36,925 nucleotides of DNA from a virus: the IMG/VR virus record IMGVR_UViG_3300042934_000451, positions 1 to 36,925 of that record; one strand, written 5' to 3'. The notes beneath the pieces were generated by a model. It was not told the origin of the DNA. It ran no database searches and saw nothing but the letters and a program-made list of their open reading frames with translations. The position numbers were made by a program, and so were the translations under genes. The number at the start of each line of letters is the position of its first letter. The stretch's first letter is position 1. Shown here piece by piece: positions 2,010-36,925 of this stretch.

Positions 2010-2936
2010 ATGAGATTAATAGCAATAGACGCAGGTAAATTCGCGACAAAAGCAGTTGCATTAGAAGGTTCTTCACTTTATTTCAGGACTAAGAGCACGA
2101 AAGTAAGAGAGAATCTTGATATAGACACATCTGGCAATAGTTATAAGGTGCAGCTAGACAAGGGTACATATATAATCGGCGACCAGGGGGAGGAGTCAGA
2201 TCACAGTTTGGAGAAAAATAGCTTGCTTCATAAGCTGGCGATTTATACCGCAATAGGCCAACTAGGATATGACGGCGTTGTTAATATAGTTATTGGATGC
2301 CCAGCTAGCCTATACATGAGCAAAGATAATCGGAGACAATACAAGGATTACATAAAGGATACTCCTGATATTTTTAAGCTAAACGATAAAACCTTAGATA
2401 TTATGATTGATGAAGCATTAGTCATGCCAGAGAGTAGCGGTGTTGTTTATACAAACGTAGGGTTATTCAATAATAATAGGGTTGCAGTAATAGATATTGG
2501 CGGAAGGAATATGAATTTCACAATATACGACAACCTCATCCCAGAAATAAACTCCATGATGACAACAAATCAAGGCTCCATGGAAATAGAGACCATGGTA
2601 AAAAAGAAATTCGAAACACTTTATAAGACAGCATTAAGCGCAAGAGACATCCAGCAGATCATTAACCAAGGAGGCCTTAAATACAGAGGCGAATTACAAA
2701 TTGAAAGCGTAAAAGCATTAAAAGAAATTATGCAAGAGTATTCAGAGAAAATTGTAAGCACTATAGAAAAAGACTTTTCCCTTAACACATTAGAGGTGGT
2801 TATAACAGGCGGCACAGGCTCACTGATTAAAGATGAAATACTAAAGCAAATCCCTCACGCTATATTGGCACCTGAAAGCCAATGGACAAACGTAAAAGGG
2901 TTTTTAAATATCGCAAAGGTGAGGTTTAATGGATAG
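2010..2936 (+). CDS. parM: ParM/StbA-like actin-family ATPase
   Basis: The protein has 308 residues and the bacterial-actin nucleotide fold. The phosphate-1 loop is at the N-terminus (IAIDAGKFATKAVA), phosphate-2 is near residue 165 (VAVIDIGGRNMNF) and the adenosine motif is near residue 275 (VVITGGTGS). Such proteins polymerise to push or pull DNA. Start ATG 2010 follows GGGAGG at 1996-2001; longer in-frame starts overlap ssb and lack a ribosome site. The downstream ParR-like gene overlaps its end by 8 bases and the upstream 21-bp repeats complete a parMRC-like cassette. It may segregate an extrachromosomal prophage or move phage DNA, as AlpC does in Corynebacterium prophage CGP3. Confidence 0.85.
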   Translation: MRLIAIDAGKFATKAVALEGSSLYFRTKSTKVRENLDIDTSGNSYKVQLDKGTYIIGDQGEESDHSLEKNSLLHKLAIYTAIGQLGYDGVVNIVIGCPASLYMSKDNRRQYKDYIKDTPDIFKLNDKTLDIMIDEALVMPESSGVVYTNVGLFNNNRVAVIDIGGRNMNFTIYDNLIPEINSMMTTNQGSMEIETMVKKKFETLYKTALSARDIQQIINQGGLKYRGELQIESVKALKEIMQEYSEKIVSTIEKDFSLNTLEVVITGGTGSLIKDEILKQIPHAILAPESQWTNVKGFLNIAKVRFNG

Positions 2937-3198
2937 AAAAACAGTAAGCGTAAATTTTGATAAAGACGTGAGCCTATATAAATATGTGAAAAGCCAAAAG
3001 AATTCATCTGATTTTATAAGAGATTGTATCAGAGAAAAAATGGAAAGAGAAAAAGGGCATACCAATGAATTAGAGCATATGGTTGAAAGGGTTGTGAAGA
3101 AATGTTTGAAACAACATAGTATAAGAGATAATAATACAGAATGTGATAGTAATGAAACACAAGCTTTAAAGGCTGCAGCAAGTTTTTTCGATGATTAA
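2929..3198 (+). CDS. ParR-like ribbon-helix-helix adaptor (candidate)
   Basis: The protein has 89 residues. The N-terminal 45 residues look like a ribbon-helix-helix DNA-binding fold: a short basic strand (KTVSVNFD) followed by two helices ending IRDCIREKMEREKG. The charged tail suits an adaptor that contacts ParM filaments. It overlaps the end of the actin-like gene, so the two are translationally coupled. Adaptors of type II partition systems have this size and position. Sequence identity to known ParR is typically low, so the assignment rests on fold pattern and context. Confidence 0.65.
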   Translation: MDRKTVSVNFDKDVSLYKYVKSQKNSSDFIRDCIREKMEREKGHTNELEHMVERVVKKCLKQHSIRDNNTECDSNETQALKAAASFFDD

Positions 3199-3305: not shown

Positions 3306-3716
3306 ATGATTTTAGATAAAAACGTATACAAGAAAATAGAGTACTATCTTTACAACTATGAAATGGAACATGAACAGCTTGAATTAGTGGAGGATGATAT
3401 CATCCTTGGAGTTAAGACAGGGTTTATTGATGGCGGCAGGAGTAATCAGGTAAGCAGCAAAACAGAGAATAGTGCATTGAAGTTGATTGAGAACAGAAAA
3501 GATTATGAGTGGTTAGATGTAATACAAGCTACTCTAACGAGATTTAAGGGAACAGAACATGAAGCGGTTATATCTCTTACATATAAAGAACAATATAAGC
3601 TACCTAAAATATTACGGCTAATGAATCTTGAGAGAACAGCTTATTACGATAGAAAGAATGATGTGATTATGTATGCAGCACTTAAGGCCACTGAGAGAGG
3701 GCTAATAAACCACTGA
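3306..3716 (+). CDS. RinA/ArpU-family late transcription regulator
   Basis: The protein has 136 residues and sits last in the early operon, directly before the late genes, where Gram-positive phages carry RinA/ArpU-type activators. The C-terminal part (about residues 85-130) has a sigma-region-4-like helix-turn-helix, LPKILRLMNLERTAYYDRKN. The N-terminal half is acidic. Start ATG 3306 follows GGGAGG at 3293-3298. The five 14-bp-spaced repeats at 3736-3799, immediately after this gene and against a probable late promoter, are the obvious candidate binding sites. It would switch on packaging, structural and lysis genes. Family membership was judged by eye from size, context and HTH. Confidence 0.75.
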   Translation: MILDKNVYKKIEYYLYNYEMEHEQLELVEDDIILGVKTGFIDGGRSNQVSSKTENSALKLIENRKDYEWLDVIQATLTRFKGTEHEAVISLTYKEQYKLPKILRLMNLERTAYYDRKNDVIMYAALKATERGLINH

Positions 3717-3735
3717 TTCTTTTTTTGAAAAAGTG

Positions 3736-3799
3736 TAGGAGAATTTTTGTAGGAGAAAAATAATAGGAGAATAAAAGTAGGAGAAAATAAATAGGGGAC
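3736..3799 (+). promoter_or_regulatory. Five TAGGAGAA-type repeats with exact 14-bp spacing
   Basis: TAGGAGAA occurs at 3736, 3750, 3764 and 3778, with a variant TAGGGGAC at 3792. Every start is exactly 14 bp from the last, with six AT-rich bases between. The array ends two bases before the -35 region of the candidate late promoter. This regularity suggests a cooperative binding site for the late activator encoded just upstream. Confidence 0.75.
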
Positions 3800-3800
3800 T

Positions 3801-3829
3801 TTTTTGCAATATTTATGTGCTAATATGAT
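3801..3829 (+). promoter_or_regulatory. Candidate activator-dependent late promoter
   Basis: A good -10 element TATGAT lies at 3824-3829. At 17 bp upstream the -35 box is TTTTTG (3801-3806), a poor match to TTGACA. A weak -35 next to an activator array fits a promoter that is silent without the late regulator. Transcription would start near 3836 and cover the whole late operon. Confidence 0.55.
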
Positions 3830-3841
3830 AGCATGAAGTAA

Positions 3842-3907
3842 TGCATAAGAAACTCGTCTCCCCAAGATAGGCACTAGGTGAACAATCCCTGGTGCTTTTC
3901 TTATGCA
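3842..3907 (+). ncRNA. Structured leader RNA at the 5' end of the late transcript (candidate)
   Basis: An outer stem of 11 bp pairs 3842-3852 with 3897-3907 (TGCATAAGAAA with TTTCTTATGCA). An inner hairpin of 8 bp, one of them G-T, pairs 3871-3878 with 3888-3895 around a 9-base loop. An 18-base pyrimidine-rich strand is left unpaired on one side. There is no T-run, so it is not a terminator. It begins a few bases after the predicted transcription start and could be a cis-acting antitermination or stability element for the 17-kb late operon. The role is inferred. Confidence 0.5.
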
Positions 3908-3930
3908 ATAAAATAACTGTTTTCTAAAAG

Positions 3931-4497
3931 GTGGTGAGTGCAATAAACAGGGTAGAGCCCATAAGAGATATTGATATGGTTAAGGATATAGGCAAGTACT
4001 TCAAGAGTAGGTGTGAACGGAACTACATCATGTATTTGCTTGGAGTGTACTCAGGCCTAAGAATAACAGACATTCTAAATCTCAAAGTGAAAAGTGTTAG
4101 AAATAAATCATCAATTTCTATGAGAGAGCAGAAAACAGGCAAGCAGAGGATATTTCCTATCAATCCTTTTTTAAGGAAAGCATTAGAGTCTTATATAGAT
4201 GAAAACGACTTAGAACCGGATGACTACTTGATTAGAAGACCAGGCGTAGAGAATAAACCGATTACAAGGGATATGGCTTACAAGATTATGAAGCAGGCAG
4301 CAGATTACTTTGGTTTATATAACATAGGCACTCACACGCTGAGAAAGACATTTGGATACCATCATTACATGCAATTTAAAAATGTAGTTATATTGCAACG
4401 GATATTTAACCATAGCGACCCCAGTATAACCCTCATTTATATAGGCATAGAGCAGAGCAAAATCAATGAAACAATGAATAAATTTAAGCTATTTTAA
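3931..4497 (+). CDS. Small tyrosine recombinase (catalytic domain only)
   Basis: The protein has 188 residues and is of the phage-integrase/XerC-D type. The catalytic set is visible: Arg in GLRITDIL (near residue 44), His-x-x-Arg in THTLRKTFG (near 137), His in FNHSDP (near 161), and the nucleophile Tyr in TLIYIG (near 170). The usual N-terminal core-binding domain is missing; full-length enzymes have about 300 residues or more. It is the first gene of the late operon, so it is made late and is probably not the lysogeny integrase, a role better filled by the serine recombinase at 23604. Possible roles are resolving genome multimers or serving packaging. The start is GTG 3931 or 3934 with a G-rich ribosome site overlapping; neither is ideal. 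Confidence 0.85.
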   Translation: MVSAINRVEPIRDIDMVKDIGKYFKSRCERNYIMYLLGVYSGLRITDILNLKVKSVRNKSSISMREQKTGKQRIFPINPFLRKALESYIDENDLEPDDYLIRRPGVENKPITRDMAYKIMKQAADYFGLYNIGTHTLRKTFGYHHYMQFKNVVILQRIFNHSDPSITLIYIGIEQSKINETMNKFKLF

Positions 4498-4643
4498 AAC
4501 GCAGTATCCATAATGAGAAAATGTATAATGCACAATAAAAATATAAGTATTGTATGTTGATATACAAGCGTTATGTATTAGCAGAAATATTATACACAAT
4601 AGAAGATATGAATAGTATTTTAAGGCAAAGGAGCAGAAGACAT

Positions 4644-4946
4644 TTGAAACCTTATGCAGAGAAGTTTTATAAAAGCCCTGCATGGTTAAGGTGCAGGAAA
4701 ATGTATTTCAATAGTAAGTTTGGTCTGTGTGAAAGGTGTGGAGAAACAGGAGACATAGTCCATCACAAGAAGTACATAACACCAAACAATATTAATGATG
4801 CCAAGATAACTCTTAGTTGGACTAATCTCGAAGTGTTATGTCAGGATTGTCACAACAAGGAACATCATAGTAATAAACAAAGTGTGATAGAAGAAGGGTT
4901 AATGTTTGATTGTAATGGTGATCTAGTACCTATATCCCCCCCATAA
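4644..4946 (+). CDS. HNH endonuclease
   Basis: The protein has 100 residues with the compact HNH nuclease fold common next to terminases. Two zinc-knuckle pairs, CERC and CQDC, bracket the catalytic core with HHKKYI, the Asn of SWTNLEVL and the closing His of CHNKEHH. In HK97-type cos phages such HNH proteins work with the terminase at cos cleavage. TTG 4644 was chosen as start because AAAGGAG (4627-4633) precedes it by 10 bases. ATG 4608 and ATG 4554 are in frame but have no ribosome site. The gene lies between the small recombinase and terS. Confidence 0.9.
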   Translation: MKPYAEKFYKSPAWLRCRKMYFNSKFGLCERCGETGDIVHHKKYITPNNINDAKITLSWTNLEVLCQDCHNKEHHSNKQSVIEEGLMFDCNGDLVPISPP

Positions 4947-5053
4947 ATTATTGATAATCACGCTCTCTCAGGACCGATGGGGGAGGTTCAAAAAATACAC
5001 AGGTCGATTCTATGAGGGGGTGTGGTATTTCAAAATAAAGAGAGGTGAAAAAA
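4947..5053 (+). other. Non-coding gap before terS; candidate cos/packaging site
   Basis: This 107-base gap separates the HNH gene from the terS start. It has two related G-rich patches, GACCGATGGGGGAGGT (4972-4987) and AGGTCGATT...GAGGGGGTG (5001-5023). In HNH-plus-P27/HK97-type phages cos usually lies in this interval. No overhang can be read from the sequence, so the assignment is positional only. Confidence 0.3.
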
Positions 5054-5407
5054 TTGGCAGATTTATCGAAAGATGAAAAGATTAAAAAAGAGATAAAAAG
5101 ACTTAACGCTATTTTCAGACACATAGATCCTAAATTGAAAAAGACAGTTTTGTCCCTTATTGAAAATGCAGCATTTATGGCAGTAACACTAACAGAACTT
5201 CAATATCACATCAATGAGCATGGAGTTACAGTTGAATATCAAAACGGAGAGAACCAATGGGGAACAAAAAAGTCTCCTGAGGTTGAAATATATAATACGA
5301 TGATAAAAAATCATGTGACTATTATGAAACAGCTTGCAGACTTGGTGCCAAAACAGCCGCTAAAAGACGAGGATGATGGATTCGATGAATTCGTGAATGA
5401 TAGATGA
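5054..5407 (+). CDS. terS: Terminase small subunit, P27-like
   Basis: The protein has 117 residues. It recognises phage DNA and delivers it to the large subunit for packaging. The helical, charged sequence (RLNAIFRHIDPKLKKTVLSL, followed by AAFMAVTLTELQ) matches the P27/HK97 small-terminase pattern, as does the acidic tail DEDDGFDEF. It overlaps TerL by 4 bases (ATGA). TTG 5054 was chosen as start because GAGGTGA (5042-5048) sits five bases before it. GTG 5045 is in frame but lies within that ribosome site. Confidence 0.85.
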   Translation: MADLSKDEKIKKEIKRLNAIFRHIDPKLKKTVLSLIENAAFMAVTLTELQYHINEHGVTVEYQNGENQWGTKKSPEVEIYNTMIKNHVTIMKQLADLVPKQPLKDEDDGFDEFVNDR

Positions 5408-7104
5408 GTAAAGCATTGAGAATTAAGTATGCAGTAACGTATAATCCAATACTTGAATATTGGCAGCTTATATGTGATAAGAAAATATTAGTTAGTGATA
5501 AAGTTAGGCGAGTATTTAAAAAGCTAGTTAAAGACTTAAAAGATAAAAATAGTGAATATGAATACGATAGCGTAAAAGCTAATCATGCTATTGAGTTTAT
5601 TGAGAATTACTGCAAACATTCAAAAGGGAAATGGGGCGGTAAGCCTGTAATCTTAGAATTATGGCAAAAAGCTATAATAGGGGCTACATTTGGTTTTGTA
5701 CATAAGATAGATGGCACTAGAAAATATAGGGAAGTATTCTTAGTGGTGGCACGTAAAAACGGTAAGTCCACATTAGGAAGTGCTATTGGTCTATATCTTC
5801 AAGTGGCGGATGGAGAACCAGGAGCAGAAGTCTATGCAGTAGCTACAAAGAAGGATCAAGCAAAATTAGTATGGATGGAAGCTAAAAGAATGGTTAAAAA
5901 GTCTCCTACGCTATTAAAACGTATAAAAACGTTAGTAGGTGAGTTGGTAGCTGATTTTAATGATAGCACATTCAAACCACTAGGCAGTGACAGTGATACT
6001 CTAGATGGACTAAATGTACATGGAGCAATGATGGATGAAGTCCACGCATGGAAAGACCAAAACTTATATGATGTTATCGTAGATGGTACAAGTGCGAGAG
6101 ATAATCCATTGATATTCATCATTACAACAGCAGGAACAGTGCGTGAAAGTGTATTTGACTTGAAATATGAAGAGTCAGAAATGGTTTTGAATGGATATGA
6201 AAGTGAAGATGGTTATAAGGATGAACATTTCTTGCCAATTATTTATGAATTAGATAAGAGAGAAGAATGGACAAACCCTAAGTGTTGGATTAAAGCTAAC
6301 CCGGGGCTAGGGACAATAAAAAAACTAGACCAAATAGAAGGGAAAGTAAATAAAGCAAGATCTAATCCTAAGCTAGTTAAAAATCTTGTATGTAAAGACT
6401 TTAATATAAGAGAAACAGCAGGAGAAACATGGCTCAACTTTGAACAACTTAATAATACTAAGACGTTCGACCTGTCATCATTAAAGCCAAGATATGGCAT
6501 AGGTGGAACTGACTTATCTAAAACAACAGACCTTACAGCAGCTAAGGTTATTTTTATGGTTCCAGATGATCCTAACATATATGTAATGCAAATGTATTGG
6601 CTTCCAGAAGATTTACTAGAAGAGAGAGCACGTGAAGATAAAATACCATATGAAAAATGGCATGAAATAGGGCTTCTAAGGACAACGCCTGGAAACAAAG
6701 TGCATCCAAAGTATGTTACAGAATGGTTTTTAGAAATAAGGGAAAACCATGATATTTATTTGCCTTGGATAGGCTATGACGCATGGAGTGCTGATTATTG
6801 GGTAGAAGAAATGCAGACTCATTTCGGAAAAGAATGTATGGAGCCTGTTAGGCAAGGAAAATTCACATTATCCTTGCCTATGGATACGCTTGGGGCAGAT
6901 ATTTCAAAGAAGATAGTGGTATATAACAATAATCCTATAGACAAATGGTGTTTAAGTAATACAGCAGTTGAGTATGATAAGAATGGAAATATGCAGCCTT
7001 GTAAAACGACTAACCAAAGAAAGCGTATTGATGGGACCGCTGCATTGCTTAACTGTTATGTAGAGCTTGAAAGACATAGAAACGATTATCTTAATATGAT
7101 ATAA
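5404..7104 (+). CDS. terL: Terminase large subunit
   Basis: The protein has 566 residues and is the ATP-driven packaging motor and nuclease that fills the prohead through the portal. The ATPase domain shows the Walker-A-like VARKNGKSTLG near residue 120 and Walker B AMMDEVHAW near residue 210. The C-terminal nuclease domain begins around GIGGTDLSKTTDLTA (near residue 360), with a further acidic site at WIGYDAWSADYW. The length is normal for the YmfN/HK97-like class. It is coupled to terS by an ATGA overlap. About 100 bases without a supportable gene follow before the portal. Confidence 0.95.
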   Translation: MSKALRIKYAVTYNPILEYWQLICDKKILVSDKVRRVFKKLVKDLKDKNSEYEYDSVKANHAIEFIENYCKHSKGKWGGKPVILELWQKAIIGATFGFVHKIDGTRKYREVFLVVARKNGKSTLGSAIGLYLQVADGEPGAEVYAVATKKDQAKLVWMEAKRMVKKSPTLLKRIKTLVGELVADFNDSTFKPLGSDSDTLDGLNVHGAMMDEVHAWKDQNLYDVIVDGTSARDNPLIFIITTAGTVRESVFDLKYEESEMVLNGYESEDGYKDEHFLPIIYELDKREEWTNPKCWIKANPGLGTIKKLDQIEGKVNKARSNPKLVKNLVCKDFNIRETAGETWLNFEQLNNTKTFDLSSLKPRYGIGGTDLSKTTDLTAAKVIFMVPDDPNIYVMQMYWLPEDLLEERAREDKIPYEKWHEIGLLRTTPGNKVHPKYVTEWFLEIRENHDIYLPWIGYDAWSADYWVEEMQTHFGKECMEPVRQGKFTLSLPMDTLGADISKKIVVYNNNPIDKWCLSNTAVEYDKNGNMQPCKTTNQRKRIDGTAALLNCYVELERHRNDYLNMI

Positions 7105-23603: not shown

Positions 23604-25142
23604 TTAATAATCGGAAGTGGATACTAAGTGTTGCCCCTCACCTCCACTCTTAGTATCCACTTCCACGATGTTTTTAGTCTTGAAGTGGATACTAAACTTA
23701 TTATCGTGAACCATGATTTTATCTATAAACATGTTGAGAACTTTTCTCTGATCTTCATAAGGTTTACTTGTAATATTTTTACCTATGCTTAATATATCTA
23801 TTATTTCCTGCTTAGTTATAACTGGACAGGATTTTATTTTTTCTTCTATGATGAAATGGTTAAGTTCTTTTTTTTGTTGTTCTAACTCATTAAGTTTATT
23901 TTTCAAGCTACTATTTGTTATTCCTTCTGATATAGCATTGATAATATTTTCTATCTTAGCATTTATTATCTTTATTTGTTTTTCAAACTCATTAATGTCT
24001 GAATCAACTTCATTTTTACTTCCTATATAAAAATCATATATTTTTTTAGCAAAATCATTAATAAATTTATCATTAAAAACCTCTTCTTCTAAATGTCCAA
24101 GCACAGCTTTTTCAATTTTATCTCTATCTAAAGGTTTTTTCACACATGTTTTAAATTTTTTACGTGTATTGCATATATATCTCACATATAAGTGTTTGTA
24201 TCCCCTTCCACCTAATGATCGAGAACCACTCATGACGCCGCCACATTCACCACAATACAAATAACCACTAAGTAAATATTTTTCTTTCGCTTTATAACTT
24301 TGAGACGCTATTTTTTTTTCTATTTTTTTGGATTGTACTTTTTTGAACAATGATTCTTCTAAAATACTGGGTATCCCGTTTTCTATTCTAATAATCTCGT
24401 CATCGCTGTTTTCTATATCCTTCTTTAACCCGTTAATTATTACTCTTTTTTTTCTATTGAATGTATATATTCCTATATATTTTTCGTTTTCTAAAATACT
24501 TTTCAATGAACCAATACTAAAATTTTTGCCAGCTTTCGTTTTATATCCGTTATCATGCAACCAATTGCATATATCATGATTCCTTACGTCAGATAAATAC
24601 ATTTCGTAAATTTTCTTTACAGCTATAGCTTCAAACTCATTTATTTCATATTTATTTTCAGTGTTAACATTATATCCAAATGGCGGGAACCCACCAGTAT
24701 GTTTACACTGATATGCAGTCTCCCTCATTCCTTTCATTACTTCTCTTGACAAATTTTTAGAGTAATACTCAGCCATTCCCTCTAACATACTTTCTAATAT
24801 TACACTTTCAGGACTTTCATCCAATTGCTCTGTAACAGATATGAGCCTCACATTGTTCTGTTTCAATTTTCTTTTATAGTAAGCAGAGTCATACCTATTG
24901 CGAGCAAATCTATCCAGCTTATGGACTACGATGCAATCAAACAACCCCATGTCTATAACCTTAAACATCTTTAAAAACTCAGGTCTATTATCGTTTGTTG
25001 CAGTCTTAGCTTCATCTGCATATACCTTAACAATTTCAATATTGCTTGATACACAGTATTTTTCTATTGCACGAATTTGAGCTTCTATGCTTTCTTGCCT
25101 TTGGTTATCAGAACTATATCGTACATATATAGCTGCTTTCAT
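23604..25142 (-). CDS. int: Large serine recombinase (integrase)
   Basis: The protein has 512 residues. The N-terminal resolvase domain (1 to about 150) carries the nucleophile Ser in YVRYSSDNQRQESIEAQ, then VVHKLDRFARN and a catalytic-core LESMLEGMAEYYSKNLS. The recombinase domain follows (GGFPPFGY), then a zinc ribbon (YLYCGECGG, ICN, TCVKKP) and a long coiled coil (about 375-430) that controls direction. It would integrate and, with a directionality factor, excise the prophage. A 52-bp inverted-repeat block inside its last codons is a candidate attP. It lies leftward in the lysogeny module, just downstream of immA. Confidence 0.95.
   Translation of the reverse strand: MKAAIYVRYSSDNQRQESIEAQIRAIEKYCVSSNIEIVKVYADEAKTATNDNRPEFLKMFKVIDMGLFDCIVVHKLDRFARNRYDSAYYKRKLKQNNVRLISVTEQLDESPESVILESMLEGMAEYYSKNLSREVMKGMRETAYQCKHTGGFPPFGYNVNTENKYEINEFEAIAVKKIYEMYLSDVRNHDICNWLHDNGYKTKAGKNFSIGSLKSILENEKYIGIYTFNRKKRVIINGLKKDIENSDDEIIRIENGIPSILEESLFKKVQSKKIEKKIASQSYKAKEKYLLSGYLYCGECGGVMSGSRSLGGRGYKHLYVRYICNTRKKFKTCVKKPLDRDKIEKAVLGHLEEEVFNDKFINDFAKKIYDFYIGSKNEVDSDINEFEKQIKIINAKIENIINAISEGITNSSLKNKLNELEQQKKELNHFIIEEKIKSCPVITKQEIIDILSIGKNITSKPYEDQRKVLNMFIDKIMVHDNKFSIHFKTKNIVEVDTKSGGEGQHLVSTSDY
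23613..23664. other. Candidate attP: 52-bp dyad within the 3' end of int
   Basis: GGAAGTGGATACTAAG (23613-23628) and CTTAGTATCCACTTCC (23649-23664) are perfect 16-bp inverted arms around 20 bases, centred on TC at 23638-23639. Length, symmetry and closeness to int fit large serine integrase attP sites. The repeat arms are read in different frames within int, so the repetition is at the DNA level. Confidence 0.55.
23682..23695 (+). repeat. Third copy of the integrase-end motif
   Basis: GAAGTGGATACTAA here is identical to 14 bases of the left arm at 23614-23627 and lies 17 bases beyond the right arm, in inverted orientation to it. It could be an extra integrase contact or an accessory site. 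It is also inside the int coding sequence. Confidence 0.6.
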
Positions 25143-25151
25143 AAATACCTC

Positions 25152-25622
25152 CTATATTATGTTGATATTTACATAGTTTCTTCTAATATTTAAAGCGTTT
25201 TTGCTAACTCCAAAAGTTCTAGCTATATAATCCTCTGTTAAGAATTCAAACTTTTGTAATATATGTTCTGGCATCAATAAAGCTGATGCGAAAGCATTTG
25301 CATGTTTATCTAATTCAGAGTGCATTACTGAACTTATAAAGTTATTGCAATTAAAATGTCCTAAAACTATATGCCCTATTTCATGGGCTATTGTAAAATT
25401 ACACCGCCCGTGGTAAAAAGAATTATCTATATATATCCTATATTTGTTTTTAGCAGAGTTGAATAAAGTATATCCCTCTTCACCCTCAAGATCATCATAA
25501 AACAACTCTATATTATAATTTTCATGCACTAAATCTAAAGGGTTTATTGGTAAATCATTTTCATCTAAATTCATAGTTAATACGTAAGCTTTAATTCTGT
25601 CATAATTATAATCTAATATCAT
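25152..25622 (-). CDS. ImmA/IrrE-type metallopeptidase
   Basis: The protein has 156 residues. The zinc motif HEIGHIVLGHF lies near residue 80, with Glu in the downstream SELDKHANAFASALLMP helix as probable third ligand. This family cleaves the partner phage/ICE repressor (ImmR type) upon SOS or quorum signals, as in ICEBs1. It lies between the integrase and the CI-like repressor, all leftward, so the repressor is the likely target. The start is ATG 25622 with GGGGGAAAT upstream. Confidence 0.9.
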   Translation of the reverse strand: MILDYNYDRIKAYVLTMNLDENDLPINPLDLVHENYNIELFYDDLEGEEGYTLFNSAKNKYRIYIDNSFYHGRCNFTIAHEIGHIVLGHFNCNNFISSVMHSELDKHANAFASALLMPEHILQKFEFLTEDYIARTFGVSKNALNIRRNYVNINII

Positions 25623-25649
25623 GCATTTCCCCCTAAACGCTCATTTATA

Positions 25650-25970
25650 TTATTCTTCTTCTAAAAATGCTTCCATGAGTTTTATCATCTTAGCCTTTGC
25701 TTGTGGAGTCAACTCTTTAGTTGCCCGTCTTAGCACTTGTATACCTTCTGGAAATTCTTGTTCTAAATAGTTTAAATAACTATCCCTGCCTAACAGATAA
25801 TCCATAGATACATCAAAATAATCAGCTACTTTTTGTAGCTTGTCTGAATTAGGCGCAACAGCATCCCATTTTCTTATTACACCTCTTCCAATTTCAATAT
25901 TCCTTTCTAGTTCTGTTAATGTAATATCTTTTTTTTCACATAAAGCTTTGATCTTATCAACAATACTCAT
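25650..25970 (-). CDS. CI/ImmR-like repressor
   Basis: The protein has 106 residues. The N-terminal HTH of the XRE type covers residues 5-60 (IKALCEKKDITLTELERNIE, then KVADYFDVSMDYLLGRDSY). A helical C-terminal tail (ELTPQAKAKMIKLMEAF) probably serves dimerisation. It maintains lysogeny by binding the ATTTAAA-centred operators to its right. Paired with the ImmA-type protease gene downstream. The start is ATG 25970 behind AGAGGTG on the minus strand. Confidence 0.88.
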   Translation of the reverse strand: MSIVDKIKALCEKKDITLTELERNIEIGRGVIRKWDAVAPNSDKLQKVADYFDVSMDYLLGRDSYLNYLEQEFPEGIQVLRRATKELTPQAKAKMIKLMEAFLEEE

Positions 25971-31241: not shown

Positions 31242-31291
31242 TATCAATAGGGATTGATTTCTATCTTGACTAATAAAAGTAGGTGATAAAC

Positions 31292-32158
31292 TTGGCAAGG
31301 CCAAAAAAGGACGGACTAGAATACTTCCCCTTGGATGTTTCCGCAGGGATCGATGATGAAATAGAACTACTTGAAGCTGAATATGGCCTTGAAGGTTTTT
31401 CTATATTCATCAAGCTTTTACAGAAGATTTATAAAAATAATTATTATTTGGAATGGACAGATAAAGAACAGCTACAGTTCTCTAAAAGAGTCAACACAGA
31501 CGCCGAAAAGGTTAATCTCATAATAAGCTCGTGCCTAAAATGGGGCTTACTTAATAGCAAGCTTTTTGAACATTACAACATATTGACCTCTCACGGAATA
31601 CAAGAGCGGTTCTTGCTAGCTATAGGGAGAAGAACATCATATAAAATCTACAAAGAGTATCTATTGATGACGGATGAAGAAATGAAACCATACAAAAATA
31701 TAGTTTTGCTTACAAAAACCCTAGTTAATGTAAGCAAAACCCCCTTTAATGTTGACATTAATCCCCAAAGTAAAGTAAAGGAAATAGAAAGTAAAGTAAA
31801 TAGAGAGGAAATAGAAAGTAGTAATAATACTGCTGCTATCCAACAAAAACTTGAACATTGTTTTGGAAGATTAATAAGTCCTTATGAATTAGATGAAATA
31901 TGTAGCTACTTGAAAAACAATATTCAATTGGAATTAATAGAGAAATCAATAGAAGTTGCAGCAGATAAAGGTGTTAGGGATATCAAGTATATCAAGAAAA
32001 TACTTGATAGGTGTTTAGAGAAAAACATATTAACGCTTGAACAGTATGAAATAGATCAACAAGACTTCATAAATAAGATTAAAAACAAATCTTCTTCACA
32101 AAACCAAGAAAGCGAGCCAACAACAGATGCTATGAAGAAGTTTTTAGAAGGGGGATAA
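31292..32158 (+). CDS. Replication initiation protein (Lin1244/Lin1753-like N-domain plus DnaD-like C-domain)
   Basis: The protein has 288 residues. The N-terminal winged-helix region (ARPKKDGLEYFPLDV, then IELLEAEYGLEGFSIFIKLL) matches the DUF4373/Lin1244 type. The C-terminal half (CFGRLISPYELDEICSYLKN and on) is DnaD-like. The two are joined by a low-complexity linker whose DNA contains dyads and iterons (31703-31820), a likely origin as in lambda O. TTG 31292 was chosen because AGGTGAT precedes it by five bases. The gene leads into the helicase loader gene. Confidence 0.85.
   Translation: MARPKKDGLEYFPLDVSAGIDDEIELLEAEYGLEGFSIFIKLLQKIYKNNYYLEWTDKEQLQFSKRVNTDAEKVNLIISSCLKWGLLNSKLFEHYNILTSHGIQERFLLAIGRRTSYKIYKEYLLMTDEEMKPYKNIVLLTKTLVNVSKTPFNVDINPQSKVKEIESKVNREEIESSNNTAAIQQKLEHCFGRLISPYELDEICSYLKNNIQLELIEKSIEVAADKGVRDIKYIKKILDRCLEKNILTLEQYEIDQQDFINKIKNKSSSQNQESEPTTDAMKKFLEGG
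31703..31820. other. Candidate replication origin inside the dnaD-like gene
   Basis: In order: a perfect 11-bp inverted repeat, GTTTTGCTTAC (31703-31713) with GTAAGCAAAAC (31730-31740); a 7-bp palindrome TTAATGT/ACATTAA (31746-31761); two exact 13-bp copies of AAAGTAAAGTAAA (31767, 31788); and two exact 14-bp copies of GGAAATAGAAAGTA (31780, 31807). They code for the interdomain linker. Phage origins often sit inside the initiator gene. Confidence 0.55.
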
Positions 32159-36767: not shown

Positions 36768-36917
36768 ATGGAAGACGATTATGAGAACTTAATTAATCAA
36801 TGGTTTAATTACTGCGACTCAGTAGAAGAAGTAGCAGAATTATATGCAGATTTAAAAATGGATATAAAACAACAAATGATGGATAGGATGAAGTATTTAA
36901 TAAATAAATACGAATAA
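36768..36917 (+). CDS. Hypothetical 49-residue acidic protein (complete copy)
   Basis: Starts at ATG 36768 behind GAAAGGGTGAAAG and stops at TAA 36915-36917. The sequence is acidic and helical (DDYENLINQWFNYCDSVEEV, then LKMDIKQQMMDRMKYLINK). The last 119 bases recur at the left end of the window, which is the circular junction. In the circular genome the next gene is the 58-residue one at 145. Confidence 0.7.
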   Translation: MEDDYENLINQWFNYCDSVEEVAELYADLKMDIKQQMMDRMKYLINKYE

Positions 36918-36925
36918 AATTCGAT
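36799..36925. repeat. Terminal direct repeat, right copy (circular junction)
   Basis: It is identical over 127 bases to positions 1-127. See the left copy. Confidence 0.9.

Follow-up and report, generated by a model that had tools for sequence, protein, structure and literature searches.

Five boxes in 14-bp steps as the probable binding site of a phage late activator

In many temperate phages of Firmicutes, packaging and lysis are under the control of late activators from the ArpU/RinA/DUF1492 (Ltr) superfamily. Ltr proteins generally bind four imperfect repeats, and Alt of Lactococcus phage TP901-1 binds four imperfect direct repeats from -76 to -32 (PMC13123087). In Staphylococcus phage phi13, three 18-bp repeats and a partial one are needed for the activity of the late promoter P23; deletion of the repeats abolished late promoter activity, and a reporter ending at +50 already depended on Ltr and the repeats (PMC13123087). 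Proteins with the DUF1492 domain have been named the LtrB family of late regulators (PMC5601072).

The window analyzed here is the whole 36,925-nucleotide stretch of IMG/VR virus record IMGVR_UViG_3300042934_000451. Its ends are identical over 127 bp (1-127 and 36799-36925), which indicates a circular phage contig of about 36.8 kb for which the start of the window is arbitrary. The features relevant to late gene expression are as follows.

3306-3716, + strand: putative late activator gene, 136 amino acids, ArpU/RinA/DUF1492-type, with a C-terminal sigma-region-4-like HTH at residues 64-135 (profiles and AlphaFold model)
3736-3743, + strand: box 1, TAGGAGAA (sequence)
3750-3757, + strand: box 2, TAGGAGAA (sequence)
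3764-3771, + strand: box 3, TAGGAGAA (sequence)
3778-3785, + strand: box 4, TAGGAGAA (sequence)
3792-3799, + strand: box 5, TAGGGGAC, degenerate and promoter-proximal (sequence)
3801-3806, + strand: -35 position, TTTTTG, without consensus (2/6 matches to TTGACA)
3824-3829, + strand: -10 element TATGAT of the presumed late promoter (sequence)
3842-3907, + strand: leader RNA structure, outer stem GCATAAGAAA/TTTCTTATGC around the hairpin (fold z = -3.8; outer stem >99% of shuffled leaders)
3870-3902, + strand: terminator-like hairpin GGCACTAGG...CCTGGTGCT, then TTTCTT (-14.4 kcal/mol, 40-67 nt after the -10)
3931-4497, + strand: tyrosine recombinase, phrog_216, first late gene (profile match)
4554-7104, + strand: HNH endonuclease and small and large terminase genes of the late operon (profile match)

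The regulator gene lies directly upstream of the presumed packaging-operon promoter, a trait of the Ltr superfamily, and repeats upstream of that promoter, another such trait (about four in the superfamily), are present in the window as five boxes. The window encodes two recombinases, the late tyrosine recombinase and a serine integrase (23604-25142) in the lysogeny region. A tyrosine recombinase in the place of the first late gene is widespread in Firmicutes phages. An IrrE/ImmA-like peptidase (25152-25970) sits beside a small HTH repressor, as in the lysogeny modules of temperate phages.

The boxes lie between the stop codon of the regulator gene and the presumed late promoter. Four copies of TAGGAGAA and one TAGGGGAC follow each other in exact 14-bp steps over positions 3736-3799, which confirms the spacing and box starts given in an initial annotation of this DNA. 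The array scored 43.5 bits, far beyond chance: with all periods from 10 to 30 scanned, 20 dinucleotide shuffles of the whole window reached 28.2 bits at most. The register is lost on both flanks (TTTTTGAAAAAGTG at 3722 and GCAATATTTATGTG at 3806), and nowhere else in the window, on either strand, do two boxes stand 14 bp apart, even when one mismatch is allowed. Conservation is limited to the 7- to 8-bp box, and the linkers are AT-rich and unconserved. The exact TAGGAGAA triple pattern had no match in viral contigs. The possibility that the boxes are Shine-Dalgarno sites was rejected because no open reading frame of 20 codons begins behind any of them. The promoter next to the array is also as first described: the last 7-bp box, with its end at 3798, stops two bases short of a -35 position that matches TTGACA at 2/6 bases (2/6 is also the best match over spacers of 16-18 bp), and a good -10 element, TATGAT, follows at 17 bp. 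The distance from the start of box 5 to the -10 element is 32 bp.

The regulator is predicted, by profile and modelled fold, to belong to the ArpU/RinA/DUF1492 (Ltr) superfamily. It matches phrog_36 (transcriptional regulator) with an E value of 8.2e-10, and it scores under the curated cut-offs of TIGR01636 RinA (17.8 versus 31.9) and PF07374 DUF1492 (17.4 versus 21.5). An iterated profile groups it with members that match TIGR01637 ArpU (25/38, best 7e-43), and 31 of the 38 homologues match RinA models. When the 38 homologues from syntenic loci are combined in a profile, it matches region 4 of sigma factors of known structure (FliA, E=2e-5). The AlphaFold model is all-helical (mean pLDDT 91), and its residues 64-135 overlay sigmaE region 4 on -35 DNA (69/69 residues, rmsd 1.7 A, Z 7.5); the Foldseek E values are weak, so this fold match leans on the sequence profile too. 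Taken together, the profile match and the overlay suggest that the regulator reads DNA in the manner of sigma region 4, which would naturally suit it to short boxes. The assignment of the upstream gene as an ArpU/RinA-type regulator with a sigma-4-like HTH therefore stands.

Close homologues of the regulator were not found in the collections searched. The best homologue there is 37% identical, and Clostridia genomes gave 29-37% identity. Searches with the regulator yielded no confirmed relative in viral and genome contigs, only weak partial matches in phage and plasmid collections, and no homologue in a first set of 13 host genomes or in the class of the host of one syntenic phage (L085). A distant DNA search gave no match. 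None of the four best homologues (29-37% identity) is followed by a recognizable 14-bp array; two of the closest Clostridia homologues are followed at once by another gene, without a promoter region.

The regions behind 172 non-redundant members of the regulator family were surveyed as a set. Phrog_36 also matches ordinary sigma factors (388/391 genomes), so the set may include regions that do not belong to late regulators, which dilutes the fractions given here. Arrays above the 99% null were present in 23 of the 172 regions (1.7 expected). Seventeen have a period of 10-11 bp, two have a period of 20-21 bp, the window has 14, and three further regions resemble coding repeats or noise. Autocorrelation of 4-mers over the family regions gave z = 18.4 and 19.7 at lags 10 and 11, with peaks also at 20 and 22. 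With the strong arrays left out, the values at lags 10 and 11 were 12.4 and 5.9, and control regions behind other genes were nearly flat (0.7 and 2.4). There was no signal for period 14 across the family (lag 14, z = 0.9). Thus, the window is the only clear case of 14-bp spacing in a family whose period is 10-11 bp, and it falls outside the sub-type with one box per helical turn (a period of 10-11 bp or a multiple).

In the family layout, a -10 element without a -35 element is preceded by several copies of a box specific to the phage, and a terminator-like hairpin often stands between this -10 element and the first late gene. Box sequences differ from phage to phage. For example, syntenic phages have TATACT x6 (L044), TGTCGTG x4 (L123), GGACTA x5 (L173), TTGCAG x4 (L131), TGTA (L014), and GGGAAT x4-5 (L085), and whole-genome matches have TTCCG x8 (L368), AAGTCC (L329), TTGGCAC (L289-291, L303), GTTCAC (L274), and others. 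The period in these relatives is 10 or 11 bp, and in most of their arrays the last box starts 17 or 25-28 bp before the -10 element, compared with 32 bp in the window. The same scan recovered arrays in two described systems that served as positive controls, an 11-bp array behind TP901-1 alt (22.5; best shuffle 18.6) and a 9/18-bp array behind phi13 ltr (60; best shuffle about 20). Behind phi11 rinA, two TGGCAG boxes 11 bp apart were insignificant in the scan. Because published activators bind such repeats and the scan recovered both control arrays, the array in the window represents a known arrangement with a new spacing.

These results make it very probable that the late activator encoded at 3306-3716 binds to the array, from which it would drive the late operon. 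The order of regulator, array, -10 element, and late gene recurs in unrelated phages, each with its own boxes. The initial reading of the array as a late-activator site is thus supported by phased arrays at the same place in relatives and behind TP901-1 alt and phi13 ltr, but its 14-bp period is unmatched among them. Several observations point the other way, namely, the flat lag 14, the long distance from the last box to the -10 element, the homologues without a clear 14-bp array, and the sub-cut-off profile scores.

Repeats of the iteron type also occur at partition and replication sites. parC sites are iterons, and genes for a ParM-like actin (ALP_N E=2.5e-16, phrog_691 E=2.6e-49) and a small neighboring protein lie nearby (ParM/ParR-like genes, about 2010-3198), so the array might be the centromere of a phage partition system. 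However, in parMRC systems the iterons are at the par operon and are bound by ParR, whereas here the regulator gene intervenes between the par genes and the array, which lies about 540 bp beyond the ParR-like gene and abuts a promoter. Equivalent arrays follow the regulator family across phages, and there is a separate parC candidate directly upstream of the ParM-like gene (1944-1991; ATACA x4 in steps of 10, 23, and 10 bp). A centromere is therefore very improbable. A PAPS-reductase-domain protein (348-1349; PF01507, E=6.6e-15) is encoded upstream of SSB-like and par genes. Slightly less probable still is that the boxes are replication-origin iterons or a chance tandem duplication without function. 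Iteron-like repeats do occur at origins, but the replication gene (Lin1244/DnaB_2-type) is elsewhere, at 31283-32158, and a box that is conserved between differing linkers argues against a recent tandem duplication.

The leader between the presumed late promoter and the late genes raises a different question, whether the same activator, bound to the same array, might also act as an antiterminator. The lambda pR'-tR' layout marks antitermination by Q. In the window, a hairpin with an imperfect U-tract lies between promoter and late genes, and on this reading transcripts would stop at 3870-3902 as a short leader unless the regulator modified polymerase. Terminator-like hairpins were found in 80/172 family regions, compared with 41/400 control open reading frames and 1/172 shuffles, and in 14/20 array-bearing regions. 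In hand-checked arrays the hairpin follows the -10 element, usually within 25-90 nt, and precedes the first late gene; phi11, phi13, and TP901-1 also have a hairpin with a U-tract between promoter and first late gene, further downstream in TP901-1. We found no discussion of these family leader hairpins in the literature searched. In the leader at 3839-3910, an 11-bp outer stem, TGCATAAGAAA/TTTCTTATGCA, covers the U-tract of the hairpin, and a similar outer stem occurs in two other loci (L283 and L303). Such pairing was rejected as a family feature because only 2/76 loci were above the 99% null, though it is strong in the window. Rfam gave nothing at gathering level, and weak matches to rli38 and U4 were taken as chance.

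Lambda-type Q sites are located between the -35 and -10 elements, whereas the array is upstream. The Q families PF06530, PF03589, and PF06323 did not match the window protein at E values up to 1, and none of these was among the 25 families listed when the 38 relatives were searched. Q21 was absent from the Foldseek matches and their realignment, which is not evidence of absence. Q antiterminator families do, however, share little beyond a sigma-4-like HTH and sit at the same genome position (PMC7171158). In phi13, the reporter that already requires Ltr and the repeats ends at +50 (PMC13123087). With the start site estimated from the TATA-box, this point is about the foot of the hairpin as positioned here, so control of initiation suffices in that phage. 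Antitermination is therefore kept as a testable extra rather than as the explanation, and a Q-like role of the regulator seems unlikely. The hairpin itself is more likely than not just a terminator of the early operon or a stabilizer of the leader, unrelated to the activator and compatible with the array as its binding site. A terminator is to be expected behind the regulator gene, the last of the early genes, and if leaky it could be passed by strong late transcription. However, wherever a hairpin was found in the hand-checked array loci, the late promoter lies upstream of it, and late transcripts have to run through it. A more general proposal, marginally more doubtful than a Q-like role in the window, is that the ArpU/RinA-type regulators of Gram-positive phages work in two steps as a counterpart of lambda Q, first assembling on phased arrays for initiation at a -10-only promoter and then travelling with polymerase past the leader terminator, and that, as 14-bp steps suggest, the array need not match the phase of the helix.

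If the array is the activator's binding site, each TAGGAGA box could be read by one sigma-4-like domain, as the predicted fold suggests. Several protomers, one on each box, would form a row ending beside the missing -35 element, where the proximal protomer would contact polymerase and recruit it to, or hold it on, the TATGAT element, from which the packaging and structural operon would start. Binding, activation, and one protomer per box are inferred. Boxes 1 and 4 are 42 bp, or 4.0 turns, apart and so lie on one face of the DNA, as the initial annotation noted; with a rotation of about 120 degrees per step, the same holds for boxes 2 and 5. In the relatives, by contrast, every box faces the same side. 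The further step from this spacing to an oligomer wrapping around the DNA is unsupported, since nearly all clear family arrays have 10-11 or 20-21 bp. The turn of about 120 degrees per box, unlike that in relatives, implies that strict same-face alignment is unneeded by this activator or is replaced by another contact geometry. Wrapping, a flexible tether, or protomers in unusual contact might each account for it.

A sequence rule consisting of a regulator gene, a one-box-per-turn array, and a -10 element without a -35 element allows late promoters and their cognate boxes to be read. The importance of helical phasing could be probed with the 14-bp array as a natural exception, and the recurrence of the leader hairpin opens to test whether these regulators act on initiation only.

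The locus most resembles described late-activator systems. As with TP901-1 Alt, a small activator gene lies directly upstream and direct repeats end beside the -35 region. Unlike in the window, the TP901-1 period is 11, the box is another, and there are tRNA-like genes in the leader before terS. Two are predicted downstream of the late promoter (L396, 1635-1876), a Lys tRNA gene and a longer-than-usual Ala-like one, both unannotated in the record. The phi13 Ltr/P23 locus shares the order of regulator, repeats, -10 element, and late operon and has a terminator-like hairpin after the promoter. However, its three 18-bp repeats and 9-bp part (9-bp sub-period in the scan) overlap the 3' end of the regulator gene, and phi13 Ltr is of another regulator family (IV). 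The lambdoid Q proteins (Q21, lambda Q, and Q82) offer a works-like comparison in their position between early and late genes, terminator-like leader hairpin, and sigma-4-like HTH, but they differ in having no sequence match to the regulator, and the window array lies upstream of the promoter core. The regulator is like ArpU/RinA/DUF1492 (LtrB) proteins in profile similarity, size, HTH, and gene position and unlike typical members in its divergence. Binding of late activators to direct repeats is known; the 14-bp spacing is new.
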